Part shown: piece after piece, positions 43,565 to 57,232 of the stretch
Layout of the letters: each line of letters opens with the position of its first letter
How positions within the stretch are numbered: position 1 is the first letter of the stretch
NCBI RefSeq assembly: GCF_030548465.1
Contig: NZ_JAUOSF010000004.1
Coordinates: forward strand, 372,001-436,000
Origin: Tamlana sp. 2_MG-2023
Lineage (GTDB): Bacteria; Bacteroidota; Bacteroidia; Flavobacteriales; Flavobacteriaceae
DNA length: 64,000 nt
Direction of reading: 5' to 3'
Program-made: the position numbers and the translations under genes
Notes under the pieces: generated by a model
What the model was told of the DNA's origin: nothing
The model's input: the letters and a program-made list of their open reading frames with translations, nothing else
The model's database searches: none

Positions 43565-44011
43565 ATGAATCCATATCCCTCCAAGAAGTTCCGCATTAGT
43601 GTTTTATTTTTTTTACTTCCCCTTTTTGTCTTAGCTAAAGAACATGAAAGCGGATTTGAAGATTCCGTTGCTGAAGTTATTAGCTGGGTAGCACTTATAA
43701 TAGCTCCAATTGCATGTATTGGTTTATTCCTTTTTGTTCACGTACTTCCTGAACGCGTTGCAGAAAAGAGAAATCACCCTCAAGCAGAAGCTATAAAAAT
43801 ATTATGCATTCTATCTTTATTTTTTGGCGGCTTGCTTTGGCCTTTAGCCTGGTTATGGGCTTATAGCAAACCTGTTTTCTACAAAATGGCCTATGGCACC
43901 GATAAAGGCGATTATCATGAGCCTACTATAAAAGAGTTTAAAGAACAAAATCAACCTCAGCCTGACGCACCCCAAAACACCCCTGAACAGCCAGAAAACA
44001 AAAACCAATAA
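43565..44011 (+). CDS. DUF3302 inner-membrane protein (YiaW-like)
   Basis: 148 residues. After a probable signal/anchor segment (about 10-24) come two membrane helices (about 38-60 and 80-100; WVALIIAPIACIGLFLFVHVLPERVAEKR, CILSLFFGGLLWPLAWLWAYSKPVFYKM) and a Gln/Pro-rich tail (QPQPDAPQNTPEQPENKNQ). This is DUF3302, the E. coli YiaW family, which pairs with the HlyD-type YiaV. The HlyD gene follows 23 bases on. Function is unknown. Confidence 0.82.
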   Translation: MNPYPSKKFRISVLFFLLPLFVLAKEHESGFEDSVAEVISWVALIIAPIACIGLFLFVHVLPERVAEKRNHPQAEAIKILCILSLFFGGLLWPLAWLWAYSKPVFYKMAYGTDKGDYHEPTIKEFKEQNQPQPDAPQNTPEQPENKNQ

Positions 44012-44034
44012 CCACCCTCTAAAACATAAAATAA

Positions 44035-45216
44035 ATGGAAATATTATTACTTCTTATTTATAGCGGTATTGTATGGCTTATCTTTTTTAAGTTTAAATTA
44101 TTACCATGGAACACTATAACCCAAGTTATTGTTTACATTATTCCGGTTGTAGCCATTACAATGCTCATTCTTTTACTTAATATTTTCGCACCCTCATCTC
44201 ACGATGTTCGTGTTATGAATTACAATGTTTCAGTGGTTCCTGCGGTTACTGGTCTGGTTACAGAAGTTCCAATTGAGCCCAATCAACATGTAAAAAAAGG
44301 GGAAGTCTTATTCAAAATTGACCCAGAACCATTCAAACTTCAAGTTAATAATCTTAAATCTAGAATCCCTTTATTAGAAGCTAAAGTAGTGAGTGCTAAA
44401 GCTTACGACAGAGAACTCGAAGATCAAATCTCAACGGCAAGCAATAGAATTCAAGTTATAGATGCGCAACTCGACTTAGCAATTAAAAGACAGCAACAAA
44501 CTAAAGAATTAGCCGATTTAGGTGCAGGCTCCAAATTCGATTACGAACAAGCACAAGCCAACCTCAGCAATTTACAAGCACAAAGAGCAGTTGCTCAATC
44601 GGAGAAATCTCAATATTTACAAAAAGTTTCAGCCGTTTCTTCGGAAGGTGAATTATCTGAAATCACACAAGCTAGAGCAGACCTCGAGCAAGCAAAAGCA
44701 CAACTGAAAGAAGCACAGTGGCGTTTAGATCAAACCGTATACCGAGCCCCTGCTGATGGTCGGGTGGTTAATTTACAATTACGACCAGGCGCTATGGCCG
44801 TTCAATTTCCTATTACACCAGTTTTAACTTTTATTGAAGACGAGCAATGGCTTATTGCCTTGTATAAACAAAATGAAATTAGATATGTTCAAGATGGCGA
44901 CCCAGCCGAAGTCGCTCTAAAAACATATCCTAACAGAATTATTAAATGTGAAGTAGACCATATCGTTTGGGCCAATGCGCAAGGCCAATTAACCGTTAGC
45001 GGAAAATTACCAGACACTCAAGAAACACATTTTGAAGAAGGCCGATTTGCTGTAAGATTGAAGGTTTCTGATGCAGATAAAGACTTATTTCTAGCACCTG
45101 GCGCTGTAGGTATGGGTGCTATATATACTGAAAAAGGCAGCATCATTCATTTGGTTAGAAAGGTTATTATTCGAGTAGGCACGAAACTAGATTGGGTAGT
45201 CCCTAAACTACATTAG
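44035..45216 (+). CDS. HlyD/EmrA-type membrane fusion protein (YiaV-like)
   Basis: 393 residues. Two N-terminal membrane segments (about 5-20 and 28-50) replace the usual single anchor. A biotinyl-lipoyl domain (VPAVTGLVTEVPIEPNQHVKKGEVLFKIDPEPF, about 68-100), long coiled-coil hairpin (about 110-225) and beta-barrel domain (YRAPADGRVVNLQLRPG onward) follow. It would bridge the inner membrane and the outer-membrane channel encoded next. E. coli YiaV/YibH are the closest architecture. Gap to the channel gene is two bases. Confidence 0.88.
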   Translation: MEILLLLIYSGIVWLIFFKFKLLPWNTITQVIVYIIPVVAITMLILLLNIFAPSSHDVRVMNYNVSVVPAVTGLVTEVPIEPNQHVKKGEVLFKIDPEPFKLQVNNLKSRIPLLEAKVVSAKAYDRELEDQISTASNRIQVIDAQLDLAIKRQQQTKELADLGAGSKFDYEQAQANLSNLQAQRAVAQSEKSQYLQKVSAVSSEGELSEITQARADLEQAKAQLKEAQWRLDQTVYRAPADGRVVNLQLRPGAMAVQFPITPVLTFIEDEQWLIALYKQNEIRYVQDGDPAEVALKTYPNRIIKCEVDHIVWANAQGQLTVSGKLPDTQETHFEEGRFAVRLKVSDADKDLFLAPGAVGMGAIYTEKGSIIHLVRKVIIRVGTKLDWVVPKLH

Positions 45217-45218
45217 GC

Positions 45219-46610
45219 ATGAAAGACTATTTTAGAAACATCTTTTGGTTGATTATCCTCTCGCTAAGTCTTGGCGTAACACAAAGTTGTGCTGTTAAAG
45301 CGCCTACTTCTGGAGAAAAATTTCAAGAGGAAGCCTTTGCCAATTTCATTCTGCCTTCAACTTGGCAAAATAGCATAGACACAACCGCTGTAAAAGACAA
45401 TTGGCTAAGCACTTTTAACGACCCTATTTTAGATACCTTAGTCAAAGAAGCTCTAGTATTTAATCCTGACTTACGCATAAGTAGTGCTCGAATAGAAGAA
45501 GCTCATGGTTATGTGAATGTCGCCCAAGCTGCATTACGCCCAGCACTTTCAATTTTAGGAAGAGAAACAACCAAGCTAGGCGGGAATCTCGGCGGCGGAC
45601 TAAATGGCGCCGTTTTTTCAGCATCATGGGAAATTGATATCTGGGGAAAACTACGCAATGCTAGAAATGCAGCGGAAGCTAATTTAGCCGCAACACAAAG
45701 TGAATATTCTTTTGCCCAACTCTCGATTGCAGCAAACGTGACAAGATCTTACTTTTTGGCTTCTGAAAACTATTTACAATTACAACTTGCTGAACAGATG
45801 ATTACATCGTCTGAAAACCTAAAAACCATTTCGCAACAAAGAGTCGATATAGGCATTGGTACAGAAATAGATGTTGTCATGTCTAATGCTAATTTAAACA
45901 CCCTCAAGGATGCGCACAAAAAATTAGAATTGTCTTATAACAACCAATTACGAGCCCTAGAGTTGCTACTAGGCAGATATCCGCACGCTGAAATAGCCGT
46001 AAAAAACCAACTCATTGATATTAATTCTCAAACCCCTACTGGAATCCCTTTGCAACTTTTAGAACGTAGACCAGATGTTTTAGCAGCACAACAACAATTT
46101 AATGCGGCCTTCTATCGCGTAGGCGAAGCCAATGCGGCAAAATTACCAAGTCTTAGCTTAACCGCTGGTTTTGGGGTGTTAGATAGCCCTTTAATACAAC
46201 TCACCGATGATTTTTCTAACCCCATTAGAAGTATTGGCGGCGAATTAATAGCCCCAGTTTATATGGGTGGTCAATTAAACGCCAATGTTTACATAAGAAC
46301 AGCTCAACAAAAACAGGCTGTTGAAAATTACGCAAAAACAGTTCTATACGCTATGAACGATGTTGAAAGCACTTTAGATGCTGTAAAAATTATTGACGAA
46401 CGTGAGCATTTTATTTTGGAAGCCACAAACAGTAACCAACGTGCCTTTGAACTGGAAGAAATCCGCTTCAAAGTTGGAAAAAGTGACATGAGAGATCTTC
46501 TTGATCAACAAATGGATTTGTATCAAACGCAAACCGATTTACTTCACATTCAAACGCAAAAAATCATTCAGCGTATTAATCTTTTTGTAGCCTTGGGAGG
46601 AAGCTTTTAG
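45219..46610 (+). CDS. TolC-like outer-membrane efflux lipoprotein (NodT/OprM type)
   Basis: 463 residues; lipobox-type signal (GVTQSCAVKAP, Cys about 25) and two OEP (outer membrane efflux) repeats with long helices. Conserved features include NWLSTFNDPILDTLVKEALVFNPDLRISSARIEEA, ERRPDVLAAQQQFNAAFYRVGEANAAKLPSLSLTAGFG and a VGKSDMRDLLDQQMDLYQTQ end. It forms a trimeric channel with the HlyD partner two bases upstream. The third component, a pump, is not in the operon. Confidence 0.92.
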   Translation: MKDYFRNIFWLIILSLSLGVTQSCAVKAPTSGEKFQEEAFANFILPSTWQNSIDTTAVKDNWLSTFNDPILDTLVKEALVFNPDLRISSARIEEAHGYVNVAQAALRPALSILGRETTKLGGNLGGGLNGAVFSASWEIDIWGKLRNARNAAEANLAATQSEYSFAQLSIAANVTRSYFLASENYLQLQLAEQMITSSENLKTISQQRVDIGIGTEIDVVMSNANLNTLKDAHKKLELSYNNQLRALELLLGRYPHAEIAVKNQLIDINSQTPTGIPLQLLERRPDVLAAQQQFNAAFYRVGEANAAKLPSLSLTAGFGVLDSPLIQLTDDFSNPIRSIGGELIAPVYMGGQLNANVYIRTAQQKQAVENYAKTVLYAMNDVESTLDAVKIIDEREHFILEATNSNQRAFELEEIRFKVGKSDMRDLLDQQMDLYQTQTDLLHIQTQKIIQRINLFVALGGSF

Positions 46611-47386
46611 AATCAATAGCTTACCCATATCTAAATATAATACATCATCACTATTAACAACAGTAACTAAAAATTCACGAAAGATCATTCCTTCGCCTAA
46701 GAAAACAGGACATAACAAGGAGAAACATTAAAACTGTCTTCACCTAATTAATGATCTCTTTTTTAATCTACTTTCTTCCATCAATTTAAAAAACAAAACG
46801 CCTACCAAGATATAAACATTCGTACAAATTTTGCGTCTACCGCATGATAACCAGATATGACTATCATATGTGCATCCGGAGAATGCTTAAGCAAGCCTAC
46901 TTTTTTTGTAACCTATCTACAAAATAATTAATTTAACATAAGAATTACGTGAAGAACTAAATTTAATCTAAATCAAAAGATTTAAAAAATACGCCAACAT
47001 GAACATCATTAAACAGAGCGATCTAGAATACAATCATAAATTCTTTTTTTTCATGAATGACATTAGTTTTCCAAAATATGAATAAAATAAACTTACGTGA
47101 ATCTATGAGCAAGAAGAAAAAACAGAATAAGCCCCTATCAGATAAGTAAAAAGACTTCCAAGGAAGTTTATTAGATGAATTCATTCCTTTTTAATACTCT
47201 AATCTCACGAACAATAAGATAGTTTTACATAAAATGTTAAAAAATAAAAAAAATAAAAAAAAAATTAACATTTTAATTTAAAATTGTATTTTAGATTACC
47301 CTTATCATCCATGATAATTTACATATTATTATTGTGTTTGGCAGGAATTTTTTATAAAACTATCATAACCCCTCAATAGTATAGTA
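46611..47386 (+). other. Long intergenic region with small-frame relics and an A-rich inverted repeat
   Basis: 776 bases without a convincing gene. A 23-codon frame (47078-47149; MNKINLRESMSKKKKQNKPLSDK-like, too long to assign) and a 28-codon frame start nearby and stop early. A small palindrome ACTTCC-AA-GGAAGT lies at 47154-47167 and an A-rich inverted repeat at 47231-47274. Around 46838-46905 there is weak similarity to the palindromic repeat near 22.5 kb. Probably decayed sequence plus the promoter of the DUF1254 operon. Confidence 0.45.
47231..47274. repeat. Inverted repeat with 24-nt A-rich loop
   Basis: AAAATGTTAA (47231-47240) and TTAACATTTT (47265-47274) are perfect inverses around an almost pure-A loop. 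It sits 113 bases upstream of the first DUF1254 gene. It could be a terminator, bent DNA or a regulator site. Confidence 0.5.
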
Positions 47387-48868
47387 ATGAAAAAAGGATT
47401 ATTCTACATCACTAGCTGTATTCTTATACTTAGCACTAGTTGTACTCAGCAACAACAATCACAAAGCTCAAAAGAAACGCAGAATGCCGTTTCAAAAACA
47501 GGTGATAAAAAAGCCATAACTATGGATGGCGAATTACCAGACAGATCATCTCTTCCTGCTGTTTTTGATGAAATGGATTATCAACAAGCAACACAAACCT
47601 ACTTATGGGCGTTGCCACTAGTATCCTTCGCCGAATGGCAATATGTTCAAGAGCAATATGGTGCAACTAATAACGATTTGGTTATGTATGATACATACAT
47701 GAACAAATTAGCAATAGTTACCGCAAATGCTACAACACCTTATGTAATGGCTTTAATGGACTTATCAAAAACAGGTCCAATGGTTATAGAAATGCCTGCA
47801 GGACATACTGCTGGAGGCTTAGCCGATTTTTGGCAACGAGAGTTAGCGGCCATTGGCGAGGTAGGTGCAGATAAAGGCAAGGGAGGTAAATACTTATTAA
47901 TTCCTCCAGGACATGAAGCTATTAATGCGCCAGGATATTACACCATAAAATGTAATATGATGAATATTTTCTTTGGTTTTAGAGCTTTAGACCCTGATCC
48001 AAAAGCTGCGGAAGAATTAATTCGGTCTGTGAAATTGTATTCTTATGAAGATAGAAATAATCCTCCTCCAACAAAAGTAGTTTCCCCGAACGGTAATAGA
48101 ATGACCGCTAATCCTAAAGACGGTATGGCGTATTGGGAAAGATTACATAAAATTATTCAAAATGAACCAGTCCAAGAACGCGATCGCTTTTTTATGGCAT
48201 GGTTGCATAATTTAGGGATTAGTAAAGGAGAACCATTCCAACCAACCGCAAGGCAAAAGAAGATTTTATTAGAAGGTGCAAGTCAAGGTAAGATGATGGC
48301 ATATGCTAATTCATTTGATAAGAGATTTAAAAACAATAAACACTGGCCAGACAAAAATTGGGATTACGTGATGGTCATGACCAATTCGGCACAAAGAGCA
48401 GAAAACTACGATGAATTCTACAGAAGAACCTCTTACTTTTTTGAAGCCGTAACTTTCTCAAAAGCCATGATTACCAAAGTGCCAAATGTGGGTCAAGCTT
48501 ATTTAGGTAGTTATACAGATAGCGATGGTGAGTGGTTCGATGGTGAAGAATCTTACACTTTAAATGTTCCTGCAAATCCTCCAGCCCTAAATTTTTGGTC
48601 ATTGACAGTTTATGATGGGAATACACGCTGTCTCATTCAAAATGAGCAGAAGAATGCAGATTTATCCTCTCGTAAAGACTTAATTAAAAACGAAGATGGC
48701 TCCGTAGATCTTTATTTCGGGCCAACCGCTCCTGAAGGAAAAGAACAAAATTGGGTACAGACCATACCTGGAAAACATTGGTTTGCTTATATGCGCTTTT
48801 ATGCGCCAACCGAAGCCTATTTCGACAAAAGTTGGAAAATGGATGACATTAACAAAATGAAAAACTAA
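47387..48868 (+). CDS. DUF1254/DUF1214 lipoprotein, first copy
   Basis: 493 residues. Signal peptide with lipobox LSTSCTQQQQ (Cys about 20) and a Gln/Ser-rich tether. DUF1254 is seen at QQATQTYLWALPLVSFAEWQ through TPYVMALMDLSKTGPMVIEMPAG. DUF1214 is at the C-terminus (NFWSLTVYDGNTRCLIQN, NEDGSVDLYFGPTAPEG, NWVQTIPGKHWFAYMRFYAP). The function of this pair of domains is unknown; they recur in envelope-associated proteins of marine bacteria. First gene of a probable operon with a second DUF1254 gene seven bases on. Confidence 0.9.
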   Translation: MKKGLFYITSCILILSTSCTQQQQSQSSKETQNAVSKTGDKKAITMDGELPDRSSLPAVFDEMDYQQATQTYLWALPLVSFAEWQYVQEQYGATNNDLVMYDTYMNKLAIVTANATTPYVMALMDLSKTGPMVIEMPAGHTAGGLADFWQRELAAIGEVGADKGKGGKYLLIPPGHEAINAPGYYTIKCNMMNIFFGFRALDPDPKAAEELIRSVKLYSYEDRNNPPPTKVVSPNGNRMTANPKDGMAYWERLHKIIQNEPVQERDRFFMAWLHNLGISKGEPFQPTARQKKILLEGASQGKMMAYANSFDKRFKNNKHWPDKNWDYVMVMTNSAQRAENYDEFYRRTSYFFEAVTFSKAMITKVPNVGQAYLGSYTDSDGEWFDGEESYTLNVPANPPALNFWSLTVYDGNTRCLIQNEQKNADLSSRKDLIKNEDGSVDLYFGPTAPEGKEQNWVQTIPGKHWFAYMRFYAPTEAYFDKSWKMDDINKMKN

Positions 48869-48875
48869 TTGAATC

Positions 48876-50276
48876 ATGAAAAACACACTAATTTTTTTTA
48901 TTAGCCTTTTGTTTCTTGCCTCTTGCAAAAACAATGACAAAAACGTTCCATCTAAAATAGAAAATACCGTCTCGGCAGATTCGGCTAGAGCCATAGCGAA
49001 GGAAGCCTGGATTTATGGGTTTTCGGTGTTTTATAATTACAAATCGCAATCTATTTATGCTTTGAATAAAGACCGTGCAGAATATGCTGGCGGTTTCAAT
49101 CGCTTCAAGCATTATTCCACAAGCTTTACAGCTTCAGATTCTACGGTAGTAACACCAAACAACGACACACCTTATTCATGGGCTATTTTAGATCTGTCTG
49201 ATGAACCTATGATTTTGGAAGTTCCAGAAATAGAAGACGATCGTTATTATGTGATGCAATTAGTAGACCTTTATACTTTTAATTTCGATTACATCGGATC
49301 ACGTGCTACAGGAAATAAAGCAGGTAAATATTTAATAGCTGGCCCAGATTGGGAAGGAAGCGTTCCTGAAGAAATCAACAAAGCTTTTACTTCTGAAACA
49401 AATTTAGTTACCATATTAGGACGTACAGAAATGGATGATCCAAGTGAATCGGCATTGATAGAAGAAATTCAAAAAGGTTATAAATTGATACCGTTGCACG
49501 AATACACGCAAACCGAGCCACCAAAAAACAAAACCTACAACCTGCCTCTACCTGTTTGGAATGAAGCAGATTATACATCCTTAGAATTTATAAATGTGCT
49601 CAATGCACTTTTGCAATATGTTAAGGTGGATGAAAGCGAAGTGGATTTATACAAACGTTTTGCAAAAATAGGCTTGGTACCTGGACAGAAATTTGATAAA
49701 AGTGAATATAGCGAAGAAGTGCTCGCAGGCATCAAAGCAGGAATTACCGATGGCGAAAAAGCACTGAAAGAAAACAGCGACAAGACCACAAGTTCATTGC
49801 ACTTATTTGGTAGTCGAAAAGAACTTGGTAATAATTATTTAGCTCGTGCCACTGCCGCTGCCATGGGACTTTTTGGAAACACCAAAGAAGAAGCTGTGTA
49901 CGTAGGAACGATGTTCGATAACGAGGGGAAAGACCTAATTGGTAGCAATAAATATATTTTGCATTTCAAAAAGGAAGAACTTCCTACAGTTGATTTTTTC
50001 TGGAGTCTGACCATGTATAACCTACCGAAAAGAGGCCTCGTTGCCAACCCTATAGATAGATATTCTATTGGAGACCGAACAAAAGGTTTGAAATACGAAG
50101 ATAATGGTGACTTAATTATTTACCTGCAAAGCGAATCTCCAGGAAAAGGAAAGGAGAGCAACTGGCTACCTACACCAAAAGAAGGCGGATTCAATATTAT
50201 CGTACGTATGTATGGTCCAGGAGAAGAAATCACCAGCGGAAATTGGAAAATGCCAATGCCGACACTTGTAAAATAA
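48876..50276 (+). CDS. DUF1254/DUF1214 lipoprotein, second copy
   Basis: 466 residues; lipobox LFLASCKNN (Cys about 17), DUF1254 (AIAKEAWIYGFSVFYNYKSQ, TPYSWAILDLSDEPMILEVPE) and DUF1214 (DFFWSLTMYNLPKRGLVANP, YLQSESPGKGKESNWLPTP). It is clearly homologous to the preceding gene but strongly diverged, so this is an old tandem duplication. Stop-to-start gaps are seven bases (upstream) and 24 bases (downstream), so one transcript is likely. Confidence 0.9.
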   Translation: MKNTLIFFISLLFLASCKNNDKNVPSKIENTVSADSARAIAKEAWIYGFSVFYNYKSQSIYALNKDRAEYAGGFNRFKHYSTSFTASDSTVVTPNNDTPYSWAILDLSDEPMILEVPEIEDDRYYVMQLVDLYTFNFDYIGSRATGNKAGKYLIAGPDWEGSVPEEINKAFTSETNLVTILGRTEMDDPSESALIEEIQKGYKLIPLHEYTQTEPPKNKTYNLPLPVWNEADYTSLEFINVLNALLQYVKVDESEVDLYKRFAKIGLVPGQKFDKSEYSEEVLAGIKAGITDGEKALKENSDKTTSSLHLFGSRKELGNNYLARATAAAMGLFGNTKEEAVYVGTMFDNEGKDLIGSNKYILHFKKEELPTVDFFWSLTMYNLPKRGLVANPIDRYSIGDRTKGLKYEDNGDLIIYLQSESPGKGKESNWLPTPKEGGFNIIVRMYGPGEEITSGNWKMPMPTLVK

Positions 50277-50300
50277 ATTTTAAAGAAATTAAACCAACAG

Positions 50301-51113
50301 ATGAAAAACTTTAAATACGGCGTACTCGCTATCGCACTTTTAGTTCTACTTGCTCCAGTAGCTTTGGTAGCTCAAGAAAAAACAGGAATAAGTTCGGAAG
50401 AAGTGGCTAAAGCCAATAATCCATTAGCTAATACAAAAGCCTTTAACATACAGAATTATTATGTTGGCTCCATCTATGACGATTCTGATTTAAAAGCTAA
50501 TACCATGTTATTACGTTATTCTATGCCATTAGCCAAAGGAAAAATTTTATTACGTGCTACTATGCCATTTAGTACGTTGCCTTCTGGATACGAAGCTACA
50601 GGTACACCTAAATACAGTTCTGGTACAGGCGACTTTAACTTTTTTGCAACTTACACACTTTCTAAACCAGAGTCTAAAACCTTGATTGGCGTTGGCCCGC
50701 AGGTAGTGATGCCGACAGCAACAAGCACACATACAGGAGCTGGAAAATGGCAAGCTGGTGCCGCATTGGTTATTTTTAATACGGCATCTCCTGTCGTGCA
50801 ATGGGGTGCTTTAATTACTTATCAGACATCTTTTGCGGGAGACAAAGATCGTTCTGATGTTAATTTACTTATTGCTCAACCTTTCGGGATTTTTCAGTTG
50901 GGTAAAGGTGCCTATCTGCGCTCAACAGCCTTATGGAATTTCAATATAGAAACAGAATCATACAATGTCCCTTTAGGGATTGGTGCTGGACACGTTTTAA
51001 AAGCTGGAGGAACTGTGATGAACATCTACCTAGAGCCACAATTTACCATGTTACATGAAGGTTATGGCCAGCCAGCATTCCAAGTATTTGGCGGTCTAAA
51101 TTTTCAGTTTTAA
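50301..51113 (+). CDS. Outer-membrane beta-barrel protein (MetA-pathway/porin-like), operon with DUF1254 genes
   Basis: 270 residues with a signal peptide ending VALVAQ. Alternating amphipathic strands follow (NIQNYYVGSIYDDSDLKANTMLLRYSMP; GTGDFNFFATYTLSKPESKTLIGVGPQVVMPT; ending AFQVFGGLNFQF with a C-terminal Phe, as in outer-membrane barrels). It resembles the phenol-degradation MetA-type 'transporter' family. A decayed copy of its last 27 codons occurs at 53025-53106. Confidence 0.8.
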   Translation: MKNFKYGVLAIALLVLLAPVALVAQEKTGISSEEVAKANNPLANTKAFNIQNYYVGSIYDDSDLKANTMLLRYSMPLAKGKILLRATMPFSTLPSGYEATGTPKYSSGTGDFNFFATYTLSKPESKTLIGVGPQVVMPTATSTHTGAGKWQAGAALVIFNTASPVVQWGALITYQTSFAGDKDRSDVNLLIAQPFGIFQLGKGAYLRSTALWNFNIETESYNVPLGIGAGHVLKAGGTVMNIYLEPQFTMLHEGYGQPAFQVFGGLNFQF

Positions 51114-51177
51114 GCTGAATATTACAAAATCTCAAATGGAACATATTTAATCACTATTAATCATAAATTAAAAAGCA

Positions 51178-52872
51178 ATGAAATCTATTAAAAAACTACT
51201 TCTGGCTGTAACCTTGGTTATGGTCTACACGACTTCTTGGGGGCAAGACAAACCAAATATTGTAGTTATTTGGGGTGATGATATTGGAATATCTAATATT
51301 AGTGCATATTCGCAAGGACTTATGGGCTACACCACGCCAAATATTGACAGAATAGCAGGCGAGGGAATAAAATTCCTGCATTATTATGGAGAACAAAGCT
51401 GTACAGCTGGTCGGTCGGCGTTTTTAACTGGTCAACACATTATTAGATCTGGCTTGAGTAAGGTAGGTTTCCCTGGTGCGCCTATGGGAATGAGCCAATT
51501 GGATCCTTCTATTGGCGGGTTGCTAAAGAACCTTGGTTATTCTACTGGACAATTTGGTAAAAACCATGTGGGAGACAGAAATGAATCATTACCAACCGTT
51601 AATGGGTTTGATGAGTTTTTTGGAAATCTATACCATTTAAATGCAGAAGAAGAACCAGAATTACCTGATTATCCAAAAGACCCTGAGTACATTAAAAAAT
51701 TTGGACCACGTGGAGTATTGAAAACTACAGCTACAAATGTTGATGATCCAACTGTTGATCCACGTTTCGGCAAAATTGGGAAGCAAAAAATTGAAGATAC
51801 AGGAGCGCTTACCAAAAAACGAATGGAAACCATAGATGATGAAACCTCAGCCGCAGCCATTGATTTTATGAAACGCAAGAACAATGACGATCAGCCGTTT
51901 TTTGTTTGGTTCAATGCTACACGTATGCATTTGCGCACACATGTTCGTGAGGAACACCGTGGCAGGTATAAACATGGGGACAGTGAATACATCGATGGTA
52001 TGATGGAACATGATGACATCGTAGGTGATATCCTAAATGCGCTTGATGACATGGGGATTTCTGAAAACACGATTGTAATTTATAGCACCGACAATGGCCC
52101 ACATATGAACACCTGGCCTGATGCTGCCATGACGCCATTTCGTTCTGAGAAAAACACAAACTGGGAAGGTGCCTTTAGAGTACCTTGTCTAGTAAGATGG
52201 CCTGAAAAAATTAAGCCAGGTACGGTTACAAATGAGATTATGTCGCACAACGATTGGATTCCAACTTTATGCCATGTAGCAGGTGAACCTGATATCGTAA
52301 ATAAATTAAAAGAAGGCTACAAGGCCAATGGGAATGAATATAAAGTTCACTTGGACGGTTTTGACCAATATGACTTCCTTACTAAGGTAGAAGGAACTGT
52401 AGGTAGGAACAATAACGTAAACAGCGCTCGTAATAATTTCTTTTATGCGGATGATGATGGATTGCTAGTAGCTTATAGACAAGGGGATTATAAATATGTG
52501 TTTTCAGAACAGCGTATGGCAGGAACAATGGGCTTGTGGGCAGAACCCTTTACCACACTTCGTCTGCAAAAAATATTTAACCTGATGCAAGACCCATATG
52601 AACGTGCCGACATTACATCAAACACCTATTGGGATTGGAATCTTAATCATATTGGTTCCGCTTATGGAATGATGCAAGATGTATTTGCGTTTGTGGGAAC
52701 ATTTAAAGAATATCCTCCTCGCTCTTACCCACCAAGTTTTAATCCTGCAAATATTATGGAAGAATATTTGAAAGCCAATAAGGCACTTAAAATGTTGGAA
52801 GAACACTTCCCAATGTTGCAGGAAGCAGCTAAAGAACAACAAGAAACTAAGAAATCCAATAAAAAGAAGTAG
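51178..52872 (+). CDS. Exported arylsulfatase (type I, formylglycine-dependent)
   Basis: 564 residues. Signal peptide (about 1-22, ending TSWGQ), metal-binding Asp34/Asp35 in IWGDDIG, active-site SCTAGRSAFLTGQ with Cys75 in a CTAGR motif (Ala in place of the common Pro), NATRMHLRTH, YSTDNGPHMNTWPD and RSEKNTNWEG. It removes sulfate esters in the periplasm after Cys75 is converted to formylglycine by FGE or anSME, neither visible here. It ends the operon; a terminator follows at 52926. The substrate is unknown; a sulfated glycan or aryl sulfate is possible. Confidence 0.92.
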   Translation: MKSIKKLLLAVTLVMVYTTSWGQDKPNIVVIWGDDIGISNISAYSQGLMGYTTPNIDRIAGEGIKFLHYYGEQSCTAGRSAFLTGQHIIRSGLSKVGFPGAPMGMSQLDPSIGGLLKNLGYSTGQFGKNHVGDRNESLPTVNGFDEFFGNLYHLNAEEEPELPDYPKDPEYIKKFGPRGVLKTTATNVDDPTVDPRFGKIGKQKIEDTGALTKKRMETIDDETSAAAIDFMKRKNNDDQPFFVWFNATRMHLRTHVREEHRGRYKHGDSEYIDGMMEHDDIVGDILNALDDMGISENTIVIYSTDNGPHMNTWPDAAMTPFRSEKNTNWEGAFRVPCLVRWPEKIKPGTVTNEIMSHNDWIPTLCHVAGEPDIVNKLKEGYKANGNEYKVHLDGFDQYDFLTKVEGTVGRNNNVNSARNNFFYADDDGLLVAYRQGDYKYVFSEQRMAGTMGLWAEPFTTLRLQKIFNLMQDPYERADITSNTYWDWNLNHIGSAYGMMQDVFAFVGTFKEYPPRSYPPSFNPANIMEEYLKANKALKMLEEHFPMLQEAAKEQQETKKSNKKK

Positions 52873-52925
52873 GTTTAGGCCGAATTATCTAGATTAAGCT
52901 AGAAATAATTGAATATTAAAAAGAA

Positions 52926-52962
52926 TCCATGCAATATATTTACTTTGTTGCATGGAGTTTTT
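52926..52962 (+). terminator. Terminator of DUF1254-sulfatase operon
   Basis: Stem TCCATGCAA / TTGCATGGA with a 13-nt loop, then GTTTTT, 54 bases past the sulfatase stop codon. Confidence 0.75.
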
Positions 52963-53024
52963 AGAAAAGCAATATTTCTCTTTGAATATTAAATCATCAT
53001 GGAATCATGAAAGCCAATTATCAC

Positions 53025-53106
53025 GAACCACAATTTACCACGTTTTATGAAGGTTATGGCCGGACCAGCATTCCAAGTATTTGGCAGTCTGAATTTTCAG
53101 TTTTAA
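53025..53106 (+). pseudogene. Decayed copy of the 3' end of the outer-membrane protein gene (50301-51113)
   Basis: Aligns with 51033-51113 from GAACCACAATTTACCA to CAGTTTTAA with about nine substitutions and one extra base (GGCCGGACC against GGCCAGCC), which shifts the frame. No start, no signal peptide and nothing recognisable upstream. A relic of a duplicated gene, lying directly after the operon terminator and before the DUF4136 gene. Confidence 0.85.
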
Positions 53107-53172
53107 ATATTCATAGACTATTACATTAAATTAAAAATTGGAATTTTAAAATTAATCTAAAATTTTAACTAA

Positions 53173-53748
53173 ATGAAAAATCAAATCACATTAGCAATTA
53201 TCGGCTTGTGTTTAATATTTAACACAAGCTGCGGTCCAACACTTAAAGTGACTACTGATTTCGATCGTCAAATCAATTTCAAAGAATATAAAACTTTTGA
53301 AGTATACGATTTAAAAGAACTAGAAGGGCAATTGAATCAATTAAATATTGAGAGAATAACTAATGCGATTCGAACAGAAATGATCGCTAAAGGATTTACT
53401 GAAAGTAGTGATAACCCAGATTTAAAAGTGAATGCAATTAGCATACAAAAAAATAAAGTGGCTGTTAGTGCTAATACAGACTTCTATGGTTATGGTGGTT
53501 TTTATAGACCATATGGTTACTGGGGAGCCGGTGGCGGTATGGTGTCTGGATCTACAACCTTTAATACTGATGATTATGTGGATGGCTCATTAATGATTGA
53601 TATTGTTTCTTCTAAGACCCAAAAACTAATATGGCAAGGTGTTGGAAATGCAACAATAGACAATAATGTTTCGAATCCTGATGAATTTGTTTCAAGTTCG
53701 ATCAAAAAGATTTTAAGTGGATTTCCTCCTGAACCAGCTGCGAAGTAA
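53173..53748 (+). CDS. DUF4136 lipoprotein
   Basis: 191 residues; signal peptide with lipobox NTSCGPTLK (Cys about 20). The DUF4136 core is visible: VTTDFDRQINFKEYKTFEVYD, IERITNAIRTEMIAKGFTESSDNPDLKVNAI and SLMIDIVSSKTQKLIWQGVGN. A Tyr/Gly-rich loop (YGYGGFYRPYGYWGAGGG) is typical. The protein is anchored to the outer or inner membrane; its role is unknown. The next barrel gene follows 28 bases later, so they are probably co-transcribed. Confidence 0.87.
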   Translation: MKNQITLAIIGLCLIFNTSCGPTLKVTTDFDRQINFKEYKTFEVYDLKELEGQLNQLNIERITNAIRTEMIAKGFTESSDNPDLKVNAISIQKNKVAVSANTDFYGYGGFYRPYGYWGAGGGMVSGSTTFNTDDYVDGSLMIDIVSSKTQKLIWQGVGNATIDNNVSNPDEFVSSSIKKILSGFPPEPAAK

Positions 53749-53776
53749 TATTTAATTTATTCTTAAATAAAAATAA

Positions 53777-54724
53777 ATGCGTAATTTAATCGTAATCACA
53801 TTTTTTTTAAGTTTTGGAGTGCTTTGTAATGCTCAATTAAAAGGTGATCACTTATTAGGATCTATGGGATTAAAATCGGGAACACAAGTTCCCGAAAACA
53901 CTCTTAGTATTTATATTCCAGCCTACCTATATAATGCATCTTCCCTTAAAGATGAGCATGGTAATTCAATAGCTCCAAACCCAGATTTCACAATGTTTTT
54001 AACTGGACTAGGAGGTAGTTGGGTTAGTGAACATAAAATATTTGGTGCCAATTGGGGAGCATCTATTTTGGTTCCTTTTGCTACGAATTATATTGAAGGT
54101 AATTTTACTAATACAGAGAGTCCTTTTGCTTTATCTGATATTTATATACAACCTATTCAACTTGGTTGGCATACTTCTAGAATGGATTATGTTTTTAGTT
54201 ATCAGATGTTTATTCCAACAGGTAAGTATGAATTAGGAGCATCCGACAACAGCGGTTTAGGTATGTTTATAAATGAATTATCTGGTGGTGCAACAGCATA
54301 TTTTGACTCCAAAAAAACGTTTCATTTCTCAACCTTATTTTCTTATGAAATGCATGGTAAGAAGAAAGACACAGATATAAAAACAGGAGATATTTTAACT
54401 ATTGAAGGCGGACTTGGAAAAACCTTTTATCTGTTAGATGAAAGTCAAAAAATTCCAAAGTCTTTAATTAATGCTGGAGTCGTTTACTATATGCAATATA
54501 AAGTTACTAAGGATGAAATACCTAATGAGTTAACTGGCAATTACATATATGGCATTAAGGACAAAATTATGGGCCTAGGTGTCGAAGCTAATTATTTCCA
54601 TATTTCTTCGAATATGTCAATTGGTTTGAGGTGGTTCAATGAGCTTAGTGCTGAAAGCAGATTCAAGGGGAATACTTTTTTTATAACCTTGGCTCATGTT
54701 TTTGGTCTAAAAAAGACAAAGTAA
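53777..54724 (+). CDS. Outer-membrane protein of the MetA-pathway (SphA-like) type
   Basis: 315 residues, signal peptide ending LCNAQ. A barrel pattern (HLLGSMGLKSGTQVPENTLSIYIPAYLYN; SDIYIQPIQLGWHTSRMDYVFSYQMFIPTGKYE; LGVEANYFHISSNMSIGLRWFNELSAE) matches 'protein involved in meta-pathway of phenol degradation' proteins, which are probably channels for small hydrophobic molecules. It follows the DUF4136 lipoprotein and is closed by a terminator. Distinct in sequence from the 50301 barrel, although related by fold. Confidence 0.8.
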   Translation: MRNLIVITFFLSFGVLCNAQLKGDHLLGSMGLKSGTQVPENTLSIYIPAYLYNASSLKDEHGNSIAPNPDFTMFLTGLGGSWVSEHKIFGANWGASILVPFATNYIEGNFTNTESPFALSDIYIQPIQLGWHTSRMDYVFSYQMFIPTGKYELGASDNSGLGMFINELSGGATAYFDSKKTFHFSTLFSYEMHGKKKDTDIKTGDILTIEGGLGKTFYLLDESQKIPKSLINAGVVYYMQYKVTKDEIPNELTGNYIYGIKDKIMGLGVEANYFHISSNMSIGLRWFNELSAESRFKGNTFFITLAHVFGLKKTK

Positions 54725-54738
54725 CTTTGTTATATTTA

Positions 54739-54776
54739 TAAAAAAAAGCATATGTTATTTGATGGCATATGCTTTT
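54739..54776 (+). terminator. Terminator of DUF4136 / barrel operon
   Basis: Stem AAAAGCATATG / CATATGCTTTT with an 11-nt loop and A-rich 5' flank, 15 bases after the stop codon. Confidence 0.8.
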
Positions 54777-54906
54777 CTTCCTTACCTCATAGCTAAATAT
54801 TAAATTTACTACGTAAGAAAATGAAGGATATTAAAATTTATCAATTTAATTTTAATCTATAAAACGGACTATTTCTATCACTTAAATTCTAATCATTGTA
54901 AATATT

Positions 54907-56058
54907 ATGGCTAAAAGAATTTGTTTTTTCGTTTTACAATTAGTCCTAGTGCTTTATAGTCAAATATTACAAAGTCAGAGCCATCATAAGAAAATAACTT
55001 TAAAAGATTCAATAGATGGAGCTATAGACTTAAGTGATTACATTATTTATGCCAACGGTTTTCTTGTAGTTCCAACCTTAATTACAGAACCCGCATTAGG
55101 TGGGGTTGGCGGTGCTTTAGTTCCTGTGTTTTTAAAAAAACATGCGCCAATTATAGATGAAAACGGAAAAAAAAGAAGGATAAACCCTGATATGACAGGA
55201 GCTTTAGCTATGTATACAGCAAATAAAAGTTGGTTAGCTGGAGGTTTTCGAGTAGGTACATTTATTAAACCTAGGATAAATTATAAAATAATGGCTGCTT
55301 ATGGACATTTGAACCTCTCATTTTATGAAACCCTACCCTTCAAAGGAGATCAAGAGTTTAAGTTCAATTTTAAATCGGCGTCTGTTTATGTTCAAGCTTT
55401 AAAGGAATTTAGAAATTTTAAATGGAGTGCTGGTCCTCAATACTTATTTTTAAATTCAGATATAACCCTACCCAATGATAACCTACCCAATTTTGTTACC
55501 GAAAAAGATTTAAAAAGTTCAGTTAGCCAGCTTGGAGGTGCGATACAGTTTGATGGTAGAGATAATGTTTTTACTCCAGATAAAGGTGTCCGTTTTCAAT
55601 CCGATTTTTTCTGGTCGAATTCAGCTATTGGAAGTGACTATTCCTACTGGCGTCTTAATTATTCTTTAATTGGGTACTATCCTATAACCAAGAAAATCAT
55701 TGCAGGAATTCGATTTGAAGGTGCTCAAGTTTTGAATGATCCTCCTTTTTATTTAAAACCAAGCATTAATTTACGAGGTGTGCCTGCTGGAAGATATCAA
55801 GGCAATGCGACCTTAGTTACTGAAGCTGAATTTAGATTCGATGTTTACAAGCGTTGGAGTGTAATGCTATATGGAGGAGTAGGAGATGCTTTTGATGAAT
55901 GGGATAATACTTTTAATAAATCTATAACGTATAATTATGGTTCTGGATTTCGATACTTAATTGCAAGAAAATTTAAGTTACGAATGGGGATGGATATAGC
56001 AAAAGGCCCCGAACAATGGGCATATTATGTGGTTTTTGGAAGCAATTGGATGCGTTAA
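54907..56058 (+). CDS. BamA/TamA-like D15 outer-membrane barrel (patatin- or surface-antigen type)
   Basis: 383 residues, signal peptide (about 1-22, ending ILQSQ). D15 surface-antigen barrel features: GALVPVFLKK, LGGAIQFDGRDNVFTPDKGVRFQSDFFWSN, PSINLRGVPAGRYQGNATLVTEAEFRF, VMLYGGVGDAFDEW and GSGFRYLIARKFKLRMGMDIAKGPEQWAYYVVFGSNW. No POTRA repeats are seen, so it is a barrel-only member, unlike true BamA. Separated by a terminator from the previous genes, with its own promoter region (54777-54906). Confidence 0.85.
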   Translation: MAKRICFFVLQLVLVLYSQILQSQSHHKKITLKDSIDGAIDLSDYIIYANGFLVVPTLITEPALGGVGGALVPVFLKKHAPIIDENGKKRRINPDMTGALAMYTANKSWLAGGFRVGTFIKPRINYKIMAAYGHLNLSFYETLPFKGDQEFKFNFKSASVYVQALKEFRNFKWSAGPQYLFLNSDITLPNDNLPNFVTEKDLKSSVSQLGGAIQFDGRDNVFTPDKGVRFQSDFFWSNSAIGSDYSYWRLNYSLIGYYPITKKIIAGIRFEGAQVLNDPPFYLKPSINLRGVPAGRYQGNATLVTEAEFRFDVYKRWSVMLYGGVGDAFDEWDNTFNKSITYNYGSGFRYLIARKFKLRMGMDIAKGPEQWAYYVVFGSNWMR

Positions 56059-56218
56059 CAACAAACCTTACTATTAAGATGTTAAAATGAATATGCGATT
56101 TGTAACCTAAAACCACTATTACTTTTAGGTTTAAGGTAGTTAAGTGTTAAGTCCGCCTTAAACCTTCCTCTTGAACAATAAACATTCAATACTTTTGTAT
56201 GAGTAAACACAAGTACCT

Positions 56219-57232
56219 ATGCAAAACAAAAACACTGCCTATTCTATATTAGATTTAGCTATTGTTTCAAAAGGAAATACTTTAGCGGAAACCTTTGAAA
56301 ATTCTCTAGCACTAGCGCAAGCTGCGGATGAAGTTGGATACCAACGCTATTGGTTAGCAGAGCATCATAATTCTGATGCTATTGGTAGTAGTGCCACTTC
56401 TATTTTAATTGGTAAAATTGCTGAAGGCACCAAACGCATAAAAGTAGGTTCCGGTGGTATCATGTTACCAAATCACTCTCCCTTAATAATTGCCGAACAA
56501 TTTGGAACTTTAGGTATTCTATACCCAAATCGCATAGATTTAGGCTTAGGAAGAGCTCCAGGAACAGATCGAGACACTGCTAACGCTATACGATCGGATT
56601 TTTACCAAGCAGCCATGTCTTTTCCTGAAGAAGTTCAAAAATTACAAGATTATTTTTCAATATATAGCGGATCAAATAAGGTTCGCGCCAATGTCGCTGA
56701 AGGTGTTAATGTGCCCTTATATATTTTAGGTTCTAGTCATGATAGTGCGCACCTTGCCGCTAAAAAAGGATTACCTTATGCTTTTGCTAGTCATTTTGCT
56801 ACACCTCTCCTACTGTCTGCATTGGCGGTTTACCGCGAAGAATTTCAACCTTCGGAAGTACTAGATGCACCTTACACCCTAGCTGGTGTTAATATTATTG
56901 TAGCAGATACCGATGAAGAAGCCGAGCACATATCAACGTCACTTTATAAAATGATTATTGGCCTTATTACAGGGAAAAGAGGACTCATGCAAGCCCCCGA
57001 AGCCATGACTAACGAGCTTCGTGAAATGAGTAAACACCCTTCTGTGCAGCAAATGCTTAAATATTCGTTTATTGGAAGCAAAGCCACTGTAAAAGAAAAA
57101 GTGAAAGCTTTTATTGAAGACACTCAGATCGATGAAATTATAGCTGTTACTAATATTTATGATAGCAAAGACCGTATTAAATCCTACCGTTTATTTGCTG
57201 AAATTATGCAAGAATTAAATAATGAAGCTTAG
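56219..57232 (+). CDS. Luciferase-like (LLM class) flavin-dependent oxidoreductase
   Basis: 337 residues, TIM barrel. SILDLAIVSKGNTLAETFENSLALAQAADEVGYQRYWLAEHHN (about 8-50) and GTKRIKVGSGGIMLPNHSPLIIAEQFGTLGILYPNRIDLGLGRAPGTD are signature stretches of the group that includes YwcH. It would use FMNH2 (or F420 in other phyla) and oxygen. Substrate unknown. The gene converges on the TonB receptor gene with a shared terminator at 57268. Confidence 0.9.
   Translation: MQNKNTAYSILDLAIVSKGNTLAETFENSLALAQAADEVGYQRYWLAEHHNSDAIGSSATSILIGKIAEGTKRIKVGSGGIMLPNHSPLIIAEQFGTLGILYPNRIDLGLGRAPGTDRDTANAIRSDFYQAAMSFPEEVQKLQDYFSIYSGSNKVRANVAEGVNVPLYILGSSHDSAHLAAKKGLPYAFASHFATPLLLSALAVYREEFQPSEVLDAPYTLAGVNIIVADTDEEAEHISTSLYKMIIGLITGKRGLMQAPEAMTNELREMSKHPSVQQMLKYSFIGSKATVKEKVKAFIEDTQIDEIIAVTNIYDSKDRIKSYRLFAEIMQELNNEA

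Follow-up and report, generated by a model that had tools for sequence, protein, structure and literature searches.

What do paired lipoproteins carrying the domains DUF1254 and DUF1214 do, and why should they be encoded beside a sulfatase? In the literature and records that we found, these domains have solved structures, a wide spread and no established function. The question is raised by four genes at positions 47387-52872 of a 64,000-nucleotide stretch of the Tamlana sp. 2_MG-2023 genome (contig NZ_JAUOSF010000004.1, positions 372,001 to 436,000), hereafter the window, where two such lipoproteins (D1 and D2) are followed by a predicted outer-membrane protein (OMP) and a sulfatase. We found that DUF1254/DUF1214 genes recur next to sulfatases in the phylum of the window, a linkage that is well supported. 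Such genes are also grouped in some bacteria of very different groups, which suggests that DUF1254/DUF1214 proteins help to handle sulfated molecules. Tentatively, we favour the view that these four genes belong to an envelope module, of which they are the section with DUF1254, and that this module captures amphipathic sulfate esters (of the alkyl, aryl or lipid type) and removes their sulfate. The recurrent link to two unrelated sulfatase folds would give DUF1254/DUF1214 their first testable substrate class.

Linkage of DUF1254 and OMP genes to sulfatases

The gene set comprises the following elements.

47387-48868, + strand: D1, DUF1254+DUF1214 lipoprotein of 493 aa, a relative of VPA0735 (PDB 2p3y/3vb9), by Pfam, phmmer and a lipobox read by eye
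48876-50276, + strand: D2, DUF1254+DUF1214 lipoprotein of 466 aa, a relative of VPA0106 (PDB 3u07), by Pfam, phmmer and a lipobox read by eye
50301-51113, + strand: OMP, predicted outer-membrane protein of 270 aa, with plasmid relatives, many of them beside sulfatases or DUF1254
51178-52872, + strand: exported type I (S1) sulfatase of 564 aa, by PF00884, alignment to arylsulfatase A and motif positions
52920-52962, + strand: intrinsic terminator, a hairpin with a U tract, by fold energy

The linkage was counted over all DUF1254 places listed in two genome samples, with the window's own left out (35 loci). These were a family sample of 120 genomes searched with D1 (13 loci in 11 genomes) and a phylum sample of 395 genomes searched with PF06863 (22 loci in 16 genomes). 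An S1 sulfatase was present in the stretch fetched around 10 of the 35 loci, compared to 1.71 expected (P 2e-6), and lay no more than 1.5 kb from the DUF1254 gene in six, compared to 0.60 expected (P 2e-5); the chance model places genes uniformly, works with rounded genome sizes and per-genome PF00884 counts, and takes in the loci found with D1 itself. Both samples contributed (family 5/13, 1.02 expected; phylum 5/22, 0.69 expected), and merging five orthologous pairs left 8 of 30 loci linked (1.59 expected, P 7e-5). The sulfatase belonged to the group with the motif CTAGR in five of the ten linked loci (L056, L063, L069, L073 and L083) and was another S1 enzyme in the remaining five. In the phylum sample, DUF1254 was also found in 9 of the 11 genomes with a close sulfatase (47% identity or more, best three candidates per genome scored, the window's left out), compared to 16 of 394 overall, with kinship ignored. 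Furthermore, D1-D2 orthologues are found with orthologous sulfatase blocks in two genera, at a different point of the block in each. At L025, a metagenome-assembled contig titled Bacteroidetes and the sole locus from one contig scan outside both samples, an apparent sulfatase C-terminus lies directly 5′ of a D1 relative (60% identical) and a second DUF1254-type gene. At another locus (L074, 8232-12863), a DUF1254 pair lies beside a PF01663 phosphodiesterase, another enzyme of the alkaline phosphatase superfamily.

The OMP provides a second line of linkage. The sequence-only reading had called it a barrel channel; it is a predicted outer-membrane protein, while the barrel itself is suggested by the look of the sequence, since the protein has no Pfam or NCBIfam match and no solved relative. 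Membership of PF13557 was considered and rejected, as neither the window OMP nor five relatives had a Pfam match. A search for the family matched 128 records, 15 of them from Pantoea, two of which were fetched. Eleven loci (L131, L133, L134, L135, L140, L141 and L144-L148) had been picked without a known nearby DUF1254 or sulfatase gene, whereas L130, L132, L136, L142, L143 and L149, where one was already known, were left out of the count. The OMP gene lay within 10 kb of a sulfatase of either type or of DUF1254 in 8 of the 11 and adjoined a sulfatase in five, counts that are descriptive because the subset was drawn up after the results were known. L146 had neither a sulfatase nor DUF1254 within 10 kb; other neighbours included HAD, FGE, PF13557 and MscS genes at L140, and HAD, FGE and PF13557 genes at L147. 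The family also adjoins an arylsulfatase in Persicobacter. The window OMP resembles a Rhizobium OMP encoded beside two DUF1254 genes (41% identical) more than it does the OMPs of the five same-family blocks described below (24-31%). The recurrent link to sulfatases points to this outer-membrane protein family, which is without a Pfam match, as a probable partner.

The partnership extends to class III alkyl sulfatases, enzymes that hydrolyse alkyl sulfates such as sodium dodecyl sulfate (SDS), according to PMC5426288. OMP-family genes directly adjoin one in Pantoea (L131, L144), Citrobacter (L133) and Photobacterium (L145); those of L131 and L133 match PF14863, PF14864 and PF00753, and for L144 and L145 the identification comes solely from tblastn or annotation, the L145 gene showing up as two tblastn pieces that overlap. 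An alkyl sulfatase gene also stands directly after a DUF1254 pair in Agrobacterium pusense. Two loci from the window's phylum combine the same elements: L088 carries SusC, SusD, an S1 sulfatase, separate DUF1254 and DUF1214 open reading frames (ORFs) and an alkyl sulfatase, and L068 carries DUF1254, a GMC oxidoreductase, a TonB receptor and an alkyl sulfatase. These are individual observed cases, and the window genome itself has no alkyl sulfatase (PF14863) match.

Outside the phylum, DUF1254 genes lie near arylsulfatase genes on plasmids of Rhizobium, Sinorhizobium, Agrobacterium and Acinetobacter. In R. leguminosarum, R. johnstonii, R. indicum and Rhizobium sp. SU303, an arylsulfatase gene is found at a distance of 4-9 kb from DUF1254 genes and a relative of the OMP, and its product is 55-56% identical to the sulfatase of the window. 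S. meliloti AK21 has two genes annotated DUF1214 immediately before the arylsulfatase gene, and an Acinetobacter tandoii plasmid of 11,449 bases with 10 annotated genes (L139) encodes both a DUF1254 protein (37% identical to D2) and an arylsulfatase (41%). The A. tumefaciens plasmid pAtAF1_95 (L132) has genes for an arylsulfatase, an alpha/beta hydrolase, DUF3302, HlyD, a transporter and three DUF1254/DUF1214 proteins in a row, on both strands, in an island that also contains OMP-MscS, HAD, FGE and MoxR-VWA-BatD genes. Such rhizobial arylsulfatase-MoxR-VWA-BatD-FGE-HAD islands resemble the window in their sulfatase (55%), OMP relative (41%), DUF1254, DUF3302-HlyD and HAD genes; unlike them, the window lacks local MoxR-VWA-BatD and HAD genes, relatives of which lie on contig C45 of its genome, and has Omp85 and DUF4136 genes in addition. 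The DUF3302 and HlyD proteins of L132, encoded between the arylsulfatase and DUF1254, are each 29% identical to those of the window, but we rejected this pair as a general partner because it occupies that place solely in A. tumefaciens L132. Among 52 loci searched at 1e-7 there was no match to DUF3302, the rhizobial HlyD, MoxR, MscS or the alpha/beta hydrolase, and the small gene before HlyD at L123 is not DUF3302. Five sulfatase loci (L119-L123, from Leptolyngbya, Vibrio, Persicobacter JZB09, Methylobacterium and Rhodobacteraceae) had no DUF1254 match, and Pukyongiella has DUF1214-DUF1254-OMP, with no sulfatase in the fetched stretch.

Products of the four genes

Both lipoproteins match both domains above the Pfam cut-off (D1: DUF1254 7.5e-21, DUF1214 6.4e-33; D2: DUF1254 2.9e-47, DUF1214 1.7e-34). 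They had been described as diverged, and they are indeed only 25-26% identical over about 390 residues. In phmmer, D1 aligned with VPA0735 (2p3y; 1.6e-130, D1 residues 34-492) and D2 with VPA0106 (3u07; 1.5e-45, D2 residues 35-465), in each case over nearly the full mature length. VPA0735 and VPA0106, from Vibrio parahaemolyticus, are of the same DUF1254/DUF1214 type; their solved chains bear the labels hypothetical or uncharacterized and, unlike them, D1 and D2 sit with a sulfatase. An AlphaFold2 model of D1, built from an alignment of four rows, was poor, with a pLDDT of 47, and a scan of viral sequences for further D1 relatives gave no match. Across 56 full-length DUF1254 proteins from the fetched loci, some of them closely related, N114, R347, Y390, W404 and R470 (D1 numbering) are invariant, and R199, Y372, Y409 and N455 are kept in 98%. 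Speculatively, an anionic ligand could be accommodated by the invariant arginines. In Bacteroidota, an acidic run after the lipid cysteine marks a lipoprotein for surface export; neither D1 nor D2 has such a run, and they are therefore expected to be periplasmic rather than surface-exported. At L088 (9686-11227) and L089 (9149-10319), from two genomes and 87% identical, DUF1254 and DUF1214 occupy two separate ORFs, which may represent a split or decaying gene.

The sulfatase matches PF00884 at 2.7e-46, as expected of a type I (S1) enzyme, and its residues 75-79, CTAGR, fit C/S-x-P/A-x-R, which we take to be the formylglycine motif of S1 sulfatases. CTAGR was present in all 30 fetched relatives scoring above 600 bits, the window sulfatase included. 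In an alignment to arylsulfatase A, for which we assumed the metal- and sulfate-site numbering, ten catalytic positions are conserved (D34, D35, C75, R79, K128, H130, H251, D305, N306 and K325). The best match among solved S1 sulfatases was PDB 7aj0, presumably PsFucS1, followed by arylsulfatase A (1e33). The fold family and catalytic residues are common to these enzymes, whereas overall similarity is low, and the window's CTAGR differs from the C-T-P-S-R that we assume for arylsulfatase A, the solved chain of which is mutated at the Cys. The export signals of the sulfatase and the OMP, like the lipoprotein signals of D1 and D2, were read by eye from the N-termini.

As for activation, anSME was rejected as the candidate activator, since the window genome has no match to it above cut-off. 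PF03781 matches lie at four places in the genome, two of which probably correspond to GldJ and GldK, proteins of gliding motility, and one to a short frame that is 40% identical to a rhizobial FGE over 121 residues. PF00884 has 32 matches in this genome. Elsewhere (L102, 9225-14335; G000:C1), three tandem CTAGR sulfatases are 43-52% identical to the window's, with no DUF1254 in the fetched stretch.

Transcription and the larger block

The four genes had been proposed to form one operon, head to tail on the + strand with gaps of 7, 24 and 64 bases and ahead of a clear terminator. The ORFs bear out this layout, and the hairpin folds at -16.9 kcal/mol (z -5.5), with none of 200 shuffles folding as well; our terminator scan omits it because the scan's loop limit is 8 and the hairpin loop is 9 or more. 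A consensus scan found no sigma-70-like site in the 64-base gap before the sulfatase, although + strand matches do occur inside genes, at 47403, 48849, 49807, 51344 (11/12), 51718 and 51977. Over 46600-56200 on both strands, such sites were fewer than in shuffles (27 compared to a mean of 36.6). A Bacteroidota-type pattern (TTG-N17-23-TANNTTTG) matched once in 46601-56300, at 54702, where about one match is expected by chance. A single transcript over D1-D2-OMP-sulfatase is plausible.

The gene set is real, as first described, but it was wrongly bounded. Domains were scanned with Pfam and NCBIfam in ten window proteins (43565-56058), and the following neighbours were recognised.

43565-46610, + strand: DUF3302, HlyD adaptor and outer-membrane efflux protein, a possible upstream part of the island, by Pfam
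53025-53106, + strand: relic of the 3′ end of the OMP gene, two stretches 89% and 95% identical, direct repeats with 51033-51113
53173-53748, + strand: DUF4136 protein (PF13590), member of the conserved block, 64-68% identical in five same-family blocks
53777-54724, + strand: PF13557 outer-membrane protein by Pfam, member of the conserved block, 58-60% identical in four of the five blocks
54907-56058, + strand: Omp85-type barrel by Pfam, member of the conserved block, 63-68% identical in five blocks

Five genomes from a second genus in the window's family (g120) conserve the block, in the order sulfatase-HAD-OMP-(D1-D2)-DUF2252-DUF4136-AraC-PF13557-Omp85, where HAD is a HAD-type lipoprotein and AraC a regulator. 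HAD, DUF2252 and AraC were assigned by Pfam on L069 and the other g120 genes by cluster or sequence reading. The sulfatases are 73-75% identical to that of the window, the PF13557 barrel is present in four of the five, all five blocks lie 3′ of a pyruvate kinase gene, and L106 has a second sulfatase. In L069 and L073, D1-D2 (63-67% identical to the window's) lie between the OMP and DUF2252. In the window, D1-D2-OMP precede the sulfatase and the DUF4136, PF13557 and Omp85 genes (53173-56058) follow the terminator. Because the placement of D1-D2 differs between the window and L069/L073, and the pair is absent in the three other blocks, D1-D2 looks like an optional cassette that has been attached to one and the same sulfatase block in two different layouts. 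The synteny that the sequence-only reading proposed as a check is found in gene content, while the order is shuffled, and its description of the pathway as self-contained does not hold, since conservation extends beyond the terminator as far as 56058, and MoxR and a relative of HAD lie elsewhere in the genome. The HAD gene is missing from the window block, and its relative on C45 (48% identical; L151, 9486-16976) is followed by a MoxR gene 59% identical to that of A. tumefaciens and by five genes that we read, from their order and size, as DUF58-DUF4381-VWA-VWA-BatD. DUF2252 has no match in the window genome. The HAD-MoxR stretch of C45 follows the gene order of the rhizobial sulfatase islands, and the OMP relic between the terminator and the DUF4136 gene appears to be a scar of local duplication or rearrangement.

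Proposed role and competing explanations

We hypothesize a mechanism that would link the orphan domains DUF1254/DUF1214 to sulfatases. The OMP and the PF13557 barrel would allow substrate entry into the periplasm, the exported sulfatase would remove sulfate after formylglycine formation at Cys75, and the paired D1 and D2 would act on the sulfated substrate or the desulfated product, by binding it or processing it further. As for the sulfated or hydrophobic substrate proposed earlier, it is reasonable to guess at sulfate esters of amphipathic or hydrophobic character; a DUF1254-sulfatase link exists in the phylum and on proteobacterial plasmids. We infer this substrate class mainly because two unrelated sulfate-ester hydrolases, S1 and class III, share these partners. 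More broadly, DUF1254/DUF1214 could be general partners of sulfate-ester hydrolases, as paired periplasmic lipoproteins that would bind or chemically process sulfated amphiphiles and would have been recruited beside S1 and class III enzymes, together with a new OMP family serving the same substrates. The proposed envelope module is shuffled and has probably spread horizontally.

Among the closest described systems is the slf alkyl sulfate operon of the Psychrobacter plasmid pP62BP1 (PMC3346939), the main text of which does not use the term DUF. According to that description, slf is likewise an organic-sulfate gene set built round a sulfatase, and is carried on a plasmid. It has a class III alkyl sulfatase, an aldehyde dehydrogenase, a GMC oxidoreductase and a CoA ligase, whereas the sulfatase of the window is of type I and has no such enzymes beside it; the ten scanned proteins include no slf-type combination of an alkyl sulfatase with alcohol and aldehyde oxidation genes. 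Other records touch on single elements: SDS-degrading Pseudomonas is the subject of PMC6107682, VPA0735 is listed in a fold table (PMC2744874) and placed in a proposed mobile cluster, VPA0713-VPA0735, in PMC10734457, and DUF1254 appears in a table row of PMC6710368. Searches for DUF1254, DUF1214, VPA0735/VPA0106, DUF2252 and DUF4136 with sulfatase, in literature that took in few subscription papers, found no DUF1254-sulfatase link.

Several observations weigh against the proposed capture and desulfation of sulfate esters. The fetched stretch of 25 of the 35 DUF1254 loci contains no S1 sulfatase, and DUF1254 is therefore more than a sulfatase partner. A close (CTAGR) sulfatase and DUF1254 share a locus in three of the nine genomes that carry both (G287, G432 and G240) and lie apart in the other six. 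Similarly, D1-D2 are absent from three of the five same-family blocks (L103, L105 and L106), and the sulfatase can therefore do without them. Among four plasmid DUF1254 loci fetched blind, a sulfatase was present in one (Acinetobacter L139) and absent from three (Sinorhizobium L054, Embleya L055 and Microvirga L138), and the alkyl sulfatase of L088 is not found in the orthologous L089. Finally, envelope maintenance would explain the MoxR/VWA/BatD, MscS and OmpA neighbours in rhizobia equally well.

Such a maintenance or stress module, in which the sulfatase and DUF1254 would protect the cell rather than feed it, their target being its own envelope or toxic amphiphiles, is unlikely, though the most probable of the alternatives. 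The rhizobial islands add MoxR-DUF58-VWA-BatD, an MscS channel and OmpA or HlyD genes, C45 of the window genome has HAD-MoxR and the five genes of matching order and size, and no carbon-catabolic gene was recognised in the ten scanned proteins. However, we found no stress phenotype in the literature, and the alkyl sulfatase neighbours indicate a definite substrate chemistry.

It is improbable that the window is a polysaccharide-desulfating locus, in which the sulfatase would trim sulfated glycans and the DUF1214 jelly roll would be glycan-active. The 32 PF00884 matches would suit such a role, as would the SusC-SusD pair of L088 and a structural model in PMC4634964, where glycosyl hydrolase activity is predicted for a DUF1214 protein of Malassezia and the gene is treated as horizontally acquired. 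The alkyl sulfatase partners do not fit it, however, and the ten scanned proteins contain no glycoside hydrolase, lyase or SusCD, and hence not the SusC/SusD that mark a polysaccharide utilization locus. The sequence-only statement that the set is without SusCD or TonB components holds for those ten proteins but not for the related L088, where SusC-SusD lie beside the sulfatase and DUF1254.

Passive co-residence, in which DUF1254 and sulfatase genes gather in the same islands as mobile accessory genes with no joint work, would account for the many plasmid-borne cases, the shuffled order and the loci without a sulfatase, but we consider it equally improbable given the tight spacing in the window, the orthologous D1-D2 found with an orthologous sulfatase in two arrangements, and the links to two unrelated sulfatase folds.

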